NCBI GenBank assembly: GCA_019695305.1
Contig: JAIBAG010000019.1
Location: 1 to 50,118 of the forward strand
Reading direction: 5' to 3'
Source of the DNA: a bacterium
Lineage (GTDB): Bacteria; UBA10199; JAIBAG01
DNA length: 50,118 nucleotides
The translations under genes and the position numbers were made by a program. Below the pieces are notes generated by a model, which did not search any database, was not told the DNA's origin, and worked only from the letters and a program-made list of their open reading frames with translations. Positions 19,662-26,862 of this stretch are shown here, in pieces; the stretch's first letter is position 1; every line of letters starts with the position of its first letter.

Positions 19662-19701
19662 ATGTTGTAATTAAATACAACATATGTTGTAATTTATTAC
19701 A
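19662..19701 (+). promoter_or_regulatory. Multi-palindrome operator in front of the wHTH-MNT gene
   Basis: ATGTTGTA (19662-19669) and TACAACAT (19676-19683) form an inverted repeat with a 6-base spacer. TACAACATATGTTGTA (19676-19691) is a perfect 16-base palindrome. TGTAAT..ATTACA (19688-19701) is a third inverted repeat that runs into the start codon. Alternating half-sites directly before a winged-helix protein gene suggest cooperative autoregulation. Confidence 0.65.
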
Positions 19702-20246
19702 TGGATATTTTGGGGTCAAAGTCGTGTTTGCGTATTTTGAGGTATTTTATGGAAAATCCTCAAAGTGCTCATCATGTTCGTGAGCTGGCTACACATTTAG
19801 AGGTGGATGCCGGTAATTTATCGCGTGATCTTAACAAGTTACAGCAATTGGGGCTTTTAAATGTGGTTGTGCAGGGGCGTAATAAGGTTCTCTCACTTAA
19901 TCATAATCATGCCCTTACCCCTATTGTTACCAGCTACTTTAAAGCCACTCAAAGCATAGACCAGCTTATTAAAAATAAACTGCAAACTTTGCCCGATATT
20001 GAGCAGGCTTTTATTTATGGCTCTTACGCCAAAAATAAAATGGATCAACATAGCGATATTGATGTTTTGATTATTGGGGGTGTGTCGGCACTTAAAGTGC
20101 AAAAATGCCTTAAACCTGTTGAACTGCAAACAGGGCGCGAAATCCATGCCCGTATTTTAAGTTCCAAAGAATTTGCCAATCGTAAAAAGAAAAAAGATGC
20201 TTTTATTCAGGATGTTTTTGGGGGTAATATCGTGCCCGTTATATGA
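19701..20246 (+). CDS. Winged-helix + minimal nucleotidyltransferase (MNT) antitoxin-like protein
   Basis: 181 aa. Residues about 1-65 form a winged helix-turn-helix (ILRYFMENPQSAHHVRELAT, then NLSRDLNKLQQLGLL and a wing). Residues 100-165 form a minimal nucleotidyltransferase: GSYAKNKMDQHSDIDVLII with G107-S108 and D119/D121. In MNT-HEPN systems the MNT protein AMPylates and silences the HEPN toxin; here DNA binding and the transferase are fused in one protein. The downstream HEPN gene overlaps by 4 bases (ATGA). The start at 19701 keeps the first wHTH helix; an ATG at 19749 has a better Shine-Dalgarno (GAGG) but would truncate it. The operator upstream supports autoregulation. Confidence 0.85.
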   Translation: MDILGSKSCLRILRYFMENPQSAHHVRELATHLEVDAGNLSRDLNKLQQLGLLNVVVQGRNKVLSLNHNHALTPIVTSYFKATQSIDQLIKNKLQTLPDIEQAFIYGSYAKNKMDQHSDIDVLIIGGVSALKVQKCLKPVELQTGREIHARILSSKEFANRKKKKDAFIQDVFGGNIVPVI

Positions 20247-20665
20247 CCTCATCGGCACCACAAAATTTTAAGCCTGTTAATATCGATAAAAAGCAAATCG
20301 CTTTGTTTTATAAGTTGGCCCTCGAAAAACTGGGGGTTGCTCAAGATTTGGCTTCTAAAAATCCTGATATTGCCTACGAAATTTTGTACGAATCGGCTTT
20401 GCAGGCCTGCTTAGCCTTGCTTCATGCACATGGCTTGCGCCCGCGCGCGCAACCAGGGCATCACATTGCCATTATTGAAAAATCGAAAGAATTGCTCAAA
20501 CAGGAAGTAGATGATGATTTTTTTGAAGTGATGCAACTGATGCGAAAAACCCGAAACACTATGCTTTATGATGCTGTACTACCGGTAAGTCATGATGAAT
20601 TTAAAGAAATGCGGGCACAGGTGAAAATATTTTTAGAGCTTATCTGCAAGAAATTACCAAAGTAA
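20243..20665 (+). CDS. HEPN-domain protein (toxin partner of the MNT gene)
   Basis: 140 aa, all-helical. It starts in the ATGA overlap with the MNT gene, so translation is coupled. HEPN features: helix with LALEKLGVAQDLASKNPDIAYEILYESALQACLALLHAHGLRP, and near residue 104 the motif region RKTRNTMLYD. The usual catalytic R-x(4-6)-H of HEPN RNases reads R104-N-T-M-L-Y109, with Tyr in place of His, so it may be a non-canonical or inactive HEPN. Known HEPN toxins cleave RNA in the cytoplasm and are neutralised by MNT partners. A repeat copy begins 12 bases after the stop codon. Confidence 0.82.
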   Translation: MTSSAPQNFKPVNIDKKQIALFYKLALEKLGVAQDLASKNPDIAYEILYESALQACLALLHAHGLRPRAQPGHHIAIIEKSKELLKQEVDDDFFEVMQLMRKTRNTMLYDAVLPVSHDEFKEMRAQVKIFLELICKKLPK

Positions 20666-20892: not shown

Positions 20893-21717
20893 ATGAAAGA
20901 CAATTTAGCTATTTTTGAAGGTTACAAAATTAGGCGTAGTTATGATGAAGAAAGCGATACTTGGCTTTTTTCGGTTGTGGATGTTGTGCAGGCTTTAATC
21001 CAACAGAGCGATTATCAAGCGGCTCGAAACTATTGGAAAGTACTTAAAAATCGGCTTATTAAGGAAGGAAGTGAAGTGGTTACAAAATGTAACCAGTTGA
21101 AAATGCTAGCTGAAGACGGCAAGTTACGCCTTACCGACGTAGCTAATCCCGAAACTCTTTTGCGCCTCATCCAATCCGTCCCCAGCCCCAAGGCCGAACC
21201 TATCAAGCTGTGGCTTGCAAAAGTGGGCTATGAGCGTATGCAAGAAATGGCCGATCCATCTCGTTCACTCGATCGGGCGCGTGATACCTGGAAAAAACAT
21301 GGTCGAAGTGAAAAGTGGATTCAGCAACGCATGATGGGGCAGGAAACCCGCAACAAACTGACCGATTATTGGAAAGATCATGATATTAAAGAAGGAGATG
21401 AATTTGCCATTCTCACTAATATCATTCATCAGGAGTGGGCGGATGTTTCGGTTAAAGAACATAAAGCTCTTAAGGGATTAAAATCTCAAAACCTGCGAGA
21501 CCACATGAGTGAAGCCGAACTTATTTTTACGGCTCTTGCCGAACTATCCACACGGCAAATTGCCGAAAGTGTTACAGCAACGGGAATGGATGAAAATAAA
21601 GTGGCAGGTGCTAAAGGTGGCCGTATTGCCAAAAATGCCAGGCTAGAACTAGAAGCAAAAACAGGACGGAAAGTTATATCGGCCGGAAATTATTTAGCTA
21701 AAAAAAATAAAAAATAG
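20893..21717 (+). CDS. BRO-N/DinD-like protein (phage antirepressor-type domain)
   Basis: 274 aa. The N-terminal ~110 residues fit the BRO-N fold: FEGYKIRRSYDEESDTWLFS, VVDVVQALIQQSDYQAARNYW, then LKNRLIKEGSE and LRLTDVANPETLLRLIQSVPSPKAEPIKLWLAKVG. The C-terminal part (SLDRARDTWKKHGRSEKWIQ, LTNIIHQEWADVSVKEHKAL, AGAKGGRIAKNARLELEAKTG) matches the E. coli DinD type, also close in length. DinD interacts with RecA in E. coli; many relatives sit on mobile elements. The DNA or protein target here is unknown. AAGGA lies six bases before the ATG. It follows repeat B and is the right-hand gene of the accessory island. Confidence 0.85.
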   Translation: MKDNLAIFEGYKIRRSYDEESDTWLFSVVDVVQALIQQSDYQAARNYWKVLKNRLIKEGSEVVTKCNQLKMLAEDGKLRLTDVANPETLLRLIQSVPSPKAEPIKLWLAKVGYERMQEMADPSRSLDRARDTWKKHGRSEKWIQQRMMGQETRNKLTDYWKDHDIKEGDEFAILTNIIHQEWADVSVKEHKALKGLKSQNLRDHMSEAELIFTALAELSTRQIAESVTATGMDENKVAGAKGGRIAKNARLELEAKTGRKVISAGNYLAKKNKK

Positions 21718-23981: not shown

Positions 23982-23982
23982 G

Positions 23983-24055
23983 CTCCGACTGCTGGACTCG
24001 AACCAGCGACCTAGCGGTTAACAGCCGCTTGCTCTACCGACTGAGCTAAGTCGGA
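23983..24055 (-). tRNA. tRNA-Asn (anticodon GTT)
   Basis: A complete cloverleaf on the minus strand: acceptor arms TCCGACT/AGTCGGA, D-arm with AGCTCAGTCGGTAGAGC, anticodon stem AGCGG/CCGCT around loop CTGTTAA (anticodon GTT), and T-arm with GGTTCGAGTCC. Discriminator base G. The following bases are CA, not CCA, so the CCA end is probably added by the tRNA nucleotidyltransferase. A terminator follows and a promoter precedes it. Confidence 0.97.
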
Positions 24056-24415: not shown

Positions 24416-24820
24416 ATGCATCTCCAAACAGTTTCAAATACTCCAAAAAAAATACTGCTGGTTGAAGACTCCGAAAACCTGTGTCAAGTTATCACCAAGC
24501 GCGCTCAAAAAAAATTTGGTTACTCCTGCAGAGTAGATAATACGGGAGAAAATTGCATCCAGCTATGCCGTGAAGAAAAACCCGATGTTCTTATTTTAGA
24601 TATGGGACTTCCCAAGGTAAGTGGTTTAAGCCTGCTCCGCATGATTAAACAAGATAGCGAATTACAAAACATCCCGGTAATTGCCTACACCGCTTATAGC
24701 TACCACGATTTAGTAGCCGAATGTGCCGATTTAGGAATAGATGCCTACTTCACCAAATCGGAACCTATTTCCGAACTCTTCGATCTTATTCAAAATCAAA
24801 TCAATAAAACCCAACATTAA
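24416..24820 (+). CDS. Single-domain response regulator (CheY-like receiver)
   Basis: 134 aa: one receiver domain and no output domain. The acidic pocket is VEDSEN (E17, D18), the phosphoacceptor is D62 in PDVLILDMGLPK, the switch Thr is in VIAYTAYSY, and the conserved Lys is in YFTKSEP. It probably takes phosphate from the facing histidine kinase and signals by protein contact, as CheY or Spo0F do. The ATG at 24416 is chosen because AGGGGG lies about eight bases upstream; an upstream GTG at 24380 would add a nonconserved leader. It ends in a 4-base overlap with the convergent kinase gene, an unusually tight tail-to-tail pairing. Confidence 0.9.
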   Translation: MHLQTVSNTPKKILLVEDSENLCQVITKRAQKKFGYSCRVDNTGENCIQLCREEKPDVLILDMGLPKVSGLSLLRMIKQDSELQNIPVIAYTAYSYHDLVAECADLGIDAYFTKSEPISELFDLIQNQINKTQH

Positions 24821-26238
24821 GCAATTGGGAACGCCAAATGAATACTGCATCCATTTTGGTTTTCAACCCAAATTTTTCCATTTTGCGATGCCATCATTTC
24901 AATACACAATGGAAGCCCTAAACCTAATCCGTCGTGCTCGTTTACAGATAAATGCATTTTTTGAGTGGGCTGATGAAAAATTTCTTTCATACTTTTTTCA
25001 GACATCCCAGGGCCATCATCGTGCATGGTTATACATACCTTAGAAGTATCATTTTGCATTACACACGCTTTTAACACGATACTTTTTTGCGCATGCCGTA
25101 ACGCATTAGAAAACAAATTATAAATAACTTCTTTTAACAACGCCATATCACAAATAACCGCTGGCAAAGCTTCTGGCACATCCACAATCACGTTTAAATC
25201 TTGTGCCTGGCCCAACCTAAAAAAACCAAGACCAATACGCTTTAACAGCTGAACCAAATCATTTTTTTGCAACTTCACTTTATAATTACCTTTATCAAAA
25301 CGCCTCATCATCAAAAGATGATTAATAATATCATGCAAACTATCTAAATTATCTTTGGCAATACCAATAATTTGTTTTTGACTTTCGCTAACAGGGCCTT
25401 CCATTCCATCGTTTAGGTTATCTATAATACCCGATACAACCGCCAGCGGCGTGCGCAGCTCGTGCGCTAAAATACCCGAAAAATGGTCACGAATTTCATC
25501 AAGTTTTTTTCTATCGGTAATATCAATAATAGAAGCTAAAATATAGAGAGTGTTATTGATGTAAAGAGGATTAAGCCCAATTTCAACCGGAAACTCTGTT
25601 CCATCCGATCGCAATCCCTTTAAATCTCTCCCAACACCCATACGCCTTGTTTCTGGCTTATTTAAATAACCTTGCACACCTTGGTGATGGCTAGAATGAA
25701 AACGAGCCGGGATAAGACTATTTATTTTGAGACCCACCAGTGTGTGCTGAGGATAAAGAAACATTTTTTTAGCCTGGTTATTAGCAATAATAATACGTGT
25801 ATCCTGATTTACTAAAATAAGGGCATTAGGCGTAGATTCAAAAATAATTTGAAATCGCTGTTCCAGCAAGTTTGCTTCTTCCTGAATACGTATATTAAAA
25901 AAACCAAGCCATGCTACCGTCCATGCTACAGCCACTAAAACAACTCTACGTAAAAACGCATCCTGATTAAATACGTAGCCATGATGAATAAAGTAGCCCG
26001 CTATCATCAAAAAAGTAATGAGGGCTGTAATATAAATAATACTTCTTTTATTGGCATGAATGATGATGATGGCTACACAAATAAGGATATAAAACCCGTT
26101 GGTAAAATTGACTATTTTAATAAGACAATCAATCATGAATAAAACCAGAGACAGAAGCGTAAAAAACAACAGAATAAATACCACAAGCCAAGTATCTTGG
26201 TTTTTTGCATCCTTATTACTGTGTGAAAGCATAGCCAT
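24817..26238 (-). CDS. Membrane PAS sensor histidine kinase
   Basis: 473 aa. Four hydrophobic segments lie in residues about 15-115 (WLVVFILLFFTLLSLVLFM and following). A PAS domain is at about 128-250 (FQIIFESTPNALILVNQDTR, ending IIDITDRKK). A HisKA domain contains the phosphorylated His in LAHELRTPLAVVSG. The HATPase_c domain has the N-box NLFSNALRHA, G1 DDGPGMS and G2 GLGLGLPL. All catalytic motifs are present, so it should be active. Its gene starts six bases after the stop of the ethylene-receptor-like protein and so is in one operon with it. The likely phosphate acceptor is the receiver protein encoded convergently. What the PAS domain senses is unknown. Confidence 0.93.
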   Translation of the reverse strand: MAMLSHSNKDAKNQDTWLVVFILLFFTLLSLVLFMIDCLIKIVNFTNGFYILICVAIIIIHANKRSIIYITALITFLMIAGYFIHHGYVFNQDAFLRRVVLVAVAWTVAWLGFFNIRIQEEANLLEQRFQIIFESTPNALILVNQDTRIIIANNQAKKMFLYPQHTLVGLKINSLIPARFHSSHHQGVQGYLNKPETRRMGVGRDLKGLRSDGTEFPVEIGLNPLYINNTLYILASIIDITDRKKLDEIRDHFSGILAHELRTPLAVVSGIIDNLNDGMEGPVSESQKQIIGIAKDNLDSLHDIINHLLMMRRFDKGNYKVKLQKNDLVQLLKRIGLGFFRLGQAQDLNVIVDVPEALPAVICDMALLKEVIYNLFSNALRHAQKSIVLKACVMQNDTSKVCITMHDDGPGMSEKSMKEIFHQPTQKMHLSVNEHDGLGLGLPLCIEMMASQNGKIWVENQNGCSIHLAFPIA

Positions 26239-26244
26239 AACTTA

Positions 26245-26700
26245 TTATTGGTTATTTTTTTTCATCCATTCCTCTTTTTCCTTTCGCAGCCTATCTACCT
26301 CTTCTACCAACTCGTTGTACGACATAAACAAAAGCCCTTTGTTATCCATTGTTAAAATTTTAGGAACAATTCTAATCATACACACAACTGTAGCCAGCGA
26401 AACAATGGCTGTGATTAATTTAATAATGCCAGAAAGCGTGTAGTAGGCTTCCCACACATTAATGATTTCCATCAAATGGGTAGTGCCGCAGGCTAATATA
26501 AAAAGAGCAAACATAATAAACAGCCAATTAAAGGGAATTTTCTTTTTGTTTAAAATAAAAACAACCAGCAAAAAAGGAATAGAATAATAACACAGCATAA
26601 TGATCACATCGGATATGACATGCAGGCCAATCAGTTCAGGTTTCCATAAATAACAATGGCCGTGGGGCATAAACCCCTGCATATTAAAAAAACTGGACAT
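26245..26700 (-). CDS. Stand-alone ethylene-receptor-type (ETR1 N-terminal) copper-binding membrane protein
   Basis: 151 aa with three or four hydrophobic helices and a short coiled-coil tail (ELVEEVDRLRKEKEEWMKK). The first three helices match the ethylene-binding domain of plant ETR1 and cyanobacterial relatives: CYLWKPELIGLHVISDVII, YYSIPFLLVVFIL and FALFILACGTTHL. D31, Y38, I41, P42, C71 and H75 correspond one-for-one, at a constant offset of six, to ETR1 D25, Y32, I35, P36, C65 and H69; Cys and His bind the copper cofactor. In plants this domain is fused to a kinase; here it is separate and encoded six bases upstream of a membrane histidine kinase. A good Shine-Dalgarno (GGAGGG) precedes the ATG. 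Ethylene or another copper ligand as signal is inference. Confidence 0.85.
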   Translation of the reverse strand: MSSFFNMQGFMPHGHCYLWKPELIGLHVISDVIIMLCYYSIPFLLVVFILNKKKIPFNWLFIMFALFILACGTTHLMEIINVWEAYYTLSGIIKLITAIVSLATVVCMIRIVPKILTMDNKGLLFMSYNELVEEVDRLRKEKEEWMKKNNQ

Positions 26701-26862
26701 ACACCCTCCTCATTTATAAACACCATCTCATACTGAACCCGTCTTAGGCATTTGCAAGATTTTTTTTTAAAAACAGTAAAAATACCGGATAACTTCTTAT
26801 CCTTTGTGTTTACACTTTACTGTTATAAAGAAGCCCGTTACACCTACTGATAGGGAGACAAT

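Follow-up and report, generated by a model that had tools for sequence, protein, structure and literature searches.

How ligand binding by an ethylene-binding domain (EBD) reaches a histidine kinase is a long-standing question. It is posed anew by a bacterial locus in which an EBD, a membrane histidine kinase and a receiver are encoded by three separate genes: can such an EBD regulate the kinase in trans? The locus was analyzed within a stretch of 50,118 nucleotides, referred to here as the window.

The gene at 26245..26700 on the minus strand encodes a membrane protein of 151 aa. Comparison with the Pfam family ETR1_N (PF25487) gave a match of 119 bits (E = 9.3e-35) covering profile positions 2-96 of 97, with the curated cut-off of the family being 27 bits. 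By its sequence, the protein belongs to the ETR1_N family and comprises a full EBD; the likeness to ethylene-binding domains claimed in a preliminary description of this DNA is borne out by the profile match. Seven sites are needed by Arabidopsis ETR1 for ethylene binding, among them the copper ligands C65 and H69. The ETR1 residues D25, Y32, I35, P36, I62, C65, and H69 correspond to D31, Y38, I41, P42, I68, C71, and H75 of the window EBD, with a constant offset of +6, in a core located at 26350..26634 (minus strand). Six of these residues had been named before and were all found at this one offset; the seventh, I62 (here I68), is also present. In an alignment of 83 EBDs, five of the seven sites were invariant; a single row departs at D25, and two rows differ at P36.

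A structural model was obtained with AlphaFold2 from 52 aligned EBDs (mean pLDDT 86). It contains the three membrane helices expected for an EBD (residues 21-51, 58-83, and 87-117), with the metal ligands C71 and H75 in the second, followed by a C-terminal helix (residues 120-149; 26254..26343, minus strand) which, judging from the model, is a possible coupling element. The protein is probably dimeric. Sequence, profile and fold searches revealed no significant relative in a copy of the Protein Data Bank. The window EBD is the sole EBD of its genome.

The EBD gene is followed on the same strand, after 6 bases, by a gene for a membrane PAS histidine kinase of 473 aa (24817..26238, minus strand) with Pfam matches to HisKA (1.1e-11), HATPase_c (1.9e-15), and PAS_9 (3.7e-9). 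Its phosphoacceptor H259 belongs to the motif HELRTPL, and its PAS domain is encoded at 25513..25857 (minus strand). Hydrophobicity furthermore revealed a membrane region of four helices (residues about 13-118; 25885..26202, minus strand), which is common to the EBD-linked kinase of locus L035 described below. This region matched no named Pfam family at cut-off and nothing elsewhere in the 46 genomes of the phylum, and the kinase N-terminus as a query against plasmids gave no match. Convergent with the kinase gene lies a gene for a single-domain receiver of 134 aa (24416..24820, plus strand; PF00072, 2.7e-21) with D62, T92, and K114 intact; the 3′ ends of both genes overlap by 4 bases. The hallmarks of a two-component system are present, namely HisKA and HATPase_c with the phosphoacceptor H259 and a receiver with the phosphoacceptor D62. 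Coordinates and strands of the three genes, the 6-base gap, the 4-base overlap, and the four hydrophobic helices and PAS domain of the kinase had all been described correctly.

The EBD and kinase genes share one reading frame and are parted solely by TAA TAA GTT, a tandem stop plus three bases (26239..26247, minus strand). A strong Shine-Dalgarno region GAGGAGGGTGT (AGGAGG; 26701..26714, minus strand) precedes the EBD gene and none is visible ahead of the kinase gene, an arrangement suggesting that translation of the kinase is likely coupled to that of the EBD. Both genes are probably located on the same transcript. A tRNA-Asn (GTT) gene, a possible integration site, was found just outside the unit near the receiver gene (23982-24055, minus strand). 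Elsewhere in the window, inspection by eye revealed an HTH-nucleotidyltransferase-like gene (GSYAKNKMDQHSDIDVL) overlapping a subsequent HEPN-like gene (19701-20665); by sequence, this is a probable MNT/HEPN toxin-antitoxin pair. It is adjoined by a BRO/antirepressor-like open reading frame (20893-21717, also recognized by eye), possibly phage-derived. The genome encodes copper P-type ATPases and flagellins; the photosynthetic reaction-centre family is absent from it, which supports the earlier assignment to a non-photosynthetic host.

Is the separation of EBD and kinase peculiar to this locus? In a set of 46 genomes from 21 families of the phylum, an EBD above cut-off was detected in only three, and in all three it is a stand-alone protein followed by a kinase gene on the same strand and a convergent receiver gene. 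Genome G045, belonging to the same order as the window organism, shows an EBD-kinase gap of 2 bases and a receiver overlap of 35 bases; in G019, which belongs to the same class but another order, the respective values are 17 and 50 bases. Identity between G045 and G019 amounts to 66% for the EBDs, 53% for the receivers and 57% for the catalytic parts of the kinases. The N-termini of the kinases differ: two membrane helices and a PAS domain in G045, a large loop between two helices in G019, and, unlike both, four helices and a PAS domain in the window kinase. When all kinases of the 46 genomes are compared with it, the EBD-linked kinase of G045 matches the window kinase best. A match in G007 was rejected, since its E-value of 5e-4 is below cut-off and the short membrane protein lacks the motif as judged by eye.

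A scan of genomes with the window EBD as a single protein gave no relative. Outside the phylum, an alignment query of a collection with one genome per species yielded the 80 best EBD loci, which are the top matches to the query and not a random sample. In 78 of them the open reading frame extends roughly 150 residues or more, so that the EBD is part of a longer protein; of the remaining two, L102 is cut by a contig end and L035, from the Bdellovibrionaceae bacterium UBA1609, is stand-alone. The latter is the closest EBD found, being 56-60% identical to the window EBD. Its kinase gene overlaps the EBD gene in another frame, and the kinase aligns with that of the window over nearly its full length including the four-helix region (27% identity, E = 1e-41). 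L035 contains a divergent double receiver and no convergent one; the neighboring position of kinase and receiver is hence repeated in G045 and in G019 but is missing from L035. The preliminary description had called the unit heterotrimeric; this is unsupported, as there is no sign that the receiver belongs to a stable complex, and L035 lacks a convergent receiver. Plasmid-borne EBDs were rejected as split relatives: all six that were read extend into longer proteins, five of them with a kinase output recognizable by eye.

The split of EBD and kinase was seen in only four genomes, which form two well-supported pairs; the arrangement is real and conserved. C71 and H75 have not been lost in any stand-alone relative, and the neighborhood with a kinase recurs in three other genomes (G045, G019, and L035), both as the earlier proposal demands. 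In Bdellovibrio locus L060, an EBD and a PAS-kinase of the same PAS type are fused in one chain, which argues, in the manner of a Rosetta stone, that the separate proteins work together. Additionally, 14 matches to the window kinase were counted in the 2.8 Mb of the window genome; from this, the chance that a same-strand kinase directly follows a given gene is estimated at about 1 in 100-200, and two to four independent EBD-kinase pairings by chance are unlikely.

In a phylogenetic tree of EBDs, L035 and the window EBD were sisters with a support of 99/96. The EBDs of G045 and G019 formed the second stand-alone pair (100/97), with fused EBD kinases from Bdellovibrionota close by. A single clade for all four stand-alone EBDs was not rejected (AU test, P = 0.31), and the split may have arisen once or more than once.

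The EBDs of G045 and G019 end in a tail, ERFN..MxGREERIxELKxEVN, which is absent from the window EBD although a C-terminal helix is present there. The C-terminal motif ERFNxAMxGREERIxELKxEVNxL was also observed at L005:8385-8966, L006:13169-13750, and L108-L115. Its carriers are sensors lacking a kinase (with EBD, PAS, POCR-PAS, 7TM-PAS or receiver domains), and once it occurs inside a kinase. Several kinase-less PAS, POCR and receiver proteins of the phylum have this tail in common with the EBDs of G045 and G019, not with that of the window. From the sequences, it is possibly a docking helix for partner kinases, maybe a generic one. As a plasmid query, the tail gave no match.

EBD proteins without a kinase output were additionally observed on five IMG/VR virus contigs (49-121 bits; L118:3746-4555, L119:3968-4387, L120:3938-4462, L122:3746-4357, and L123:3998-4342), of which L119 may be host DNA, its viral origin not being certain. 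The EBD gene of L118 adjoins RusA-like and MazG-like genes; in L120 and L123, tail-like genes and genes for small membrane proteins lie close to it. Comparison of four of the virus-contig EBD proteins with PHROGs gave no family match. Two cultured Maribacter phages likewise encode EBDs (ETR1_N, 60 bits): Molly_1 gp065 (L124:3950-4819) and its counterpart in Colly_1 (L125:1950-2819). The phage EBDs retain C65 and H69; D25 is replaced by N in L120, L123, Molly and Colly, and P36 by S in the latter two. Molly gp065 lies directly upstream of the amidase endolysin gene with a gap of 3 bases, i.e. in holin position. Since an amidase alone is listed among the lysis genes of Molly (PMC8776804), gp065 is a holin candidate.

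From the observed domain identity, residue conservation and recurring gene order we infer a split unit resembling an ethylene receptor, in which an EBD that binds Cu(I) and ethylene regulates its partner membrane kinase in trans; we consider this reading fairly probable. An EBD dimer would bind copper via C71 and H75 together with a small ligand, most likely ethylene, and would most likely touch the kinase within the membrane and through the C-terminal helix. Loss or gain of the ligand would cause a conformational change which, passed on to the kinase, would alter autophosphorylation at H259. The receiver encoded in convergent orientation would then take up the phosphate at D62, and its output may be of the CheY/DivK type, exerted by protein contact and, as the genome has flagellins, perhaps directed at motility. 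The copper P-type ATPases of the genome and the precedent of AzoEtr1, a fused bacterial EBD kinase that binds ethylene (PMC11819568), also favor this reading. Against it, the kinase has membrane and PAS input of its own, so the EBD may provide just a part of the input or no input at all; in addition, the window EBD lacks the tail motif of G045 and G019, and the split was seen in no more than four genomes, grouped in two pairs.

Alternatively, the EBD could act on the kinase in trans as a sensor of copper, redox state or another small ligand, with ethylene not being the natural signal. The invariance of the two ETR1 copper ligands in the stand-alone EBDs, the copper exporters of the genome and an organism with neither the reaction-centre family nor an obvious ethylene source all agree with such a sensor. 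However, the non-metal residues of ethylene binding (D, Y, I, P, and I) are retained as well, and ethylene binding has been found in those bacterial EBD proteins that were assayed to date (PMC11819568, PMC6682694); we regard this explanation as rather unlikely, if worth serious attention. A lower probability still is assigned to the idea that EBD and kinase merely share an operon, the EBD being an orphan or relic and the kinase sensing by its own membrane and PAS domains. Phage contigs do hold stand-alone EBDs with no kinase beside them, and the kinase is equipped with a four-helix region and a PAS domain; such independence is nevertheless difficult to reconcile with a pairing that recurs, each time with a different kinase, in both EBD clades, with fully conserved binding residues and with the fused EBD-PAS-kinase forms of Bdellovibrionota.

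The common frame of both genes, with TAA TAA GTT as the sole separator, might finally suggest that a fused receptor gene was broken recently by a stop codon or by a sequencing error. Two consecutive stops cannot result from one base error, however, and the four membrane helices at the start of the kinase have no counterpart in the fused EBD-PAS-kinases read. Furthermore, the genes of L035 overlap in different frames, and G045 and G019 are also split; an artefact or recent fission is hardly credible and is refuted by these comparative data.

Regulation of the kinase by the EBD in trans can be extended to a stronger claim, for which we see about an even chance: a hetero-oligomeric ethylene receptor, conserved in an obscure phylum and in Bdellovibrionota, in which the stand-alone copper/ethylene EBD binds to a separate membrane histidine kinase with several inputs and controls it. 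If this is true, the EBD is a portable gas-sensing subunit that is paired with different kinases and carried by phages too. Ethylene sensing would extend to non-photosynthetic bacteria in a modular, subunit form if the EBD works in trans. A stand-alone EBD of 129-151 aa acting in this way would also be a small native structural target, with binding and output separable for tests.

A review describes the output domains of bacterial EBD proteins as ranging widely, 'from simple to complex' (PMC7700396). A stand-alone EBD with a separate kinase was not mentioned in the open literature searched, and priority is uncertain. The bacterial receptors SynEtr1 (slr1212) and AzoEtr1 combine the EBD and a PAS-type kinase in a single chain, a response regulator being encoded nearby (PMC6682694, PMC11819568); ethylene binding was reported for AzoEtr1, which has a neighboring receiver gene (PMC11819568). 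Whereas EBD and kinase are one polypeptide in these receptors, they are two in the window, and the kinase has four membrane helices of its own; furthermore, the receiver gene is convergent in the window and located downstream in SynEtr1 and AzoEtr1. The plant receptors ETR1 and ERS1 share with the window EBD a three-helix copper/ethylene-binding domain, N-terminal in the plant proteins, and all seven residues. In these receptors, however, one chain unites the EBD with GAF and kinase domains, and output proceeds via CTR1, in contrast to the separate EBD, bacterial kinase and receiver of the window. The fusion of EBD and output which characterizes a one-chain ethylene receptor is replaced by separate genes in the window and its three relatives. 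In layout, an analogy is offered by H-NOX, a stand-alone NO sensor which acts on the separate histidine kinase HnoK and has homologues elsewhere that are fused to their output. The likeness consists in a stand-alone gas-sensor domain with a separate kinase and does not extend to homology: H-NOX proteins are soluble and contain haem, whereas the EBD is a copper domain in the membrane. If our inference holds, the window unit would, by analogy, work like a one-chain ethylene receptor and be laid out like H-NOX/HnoK.
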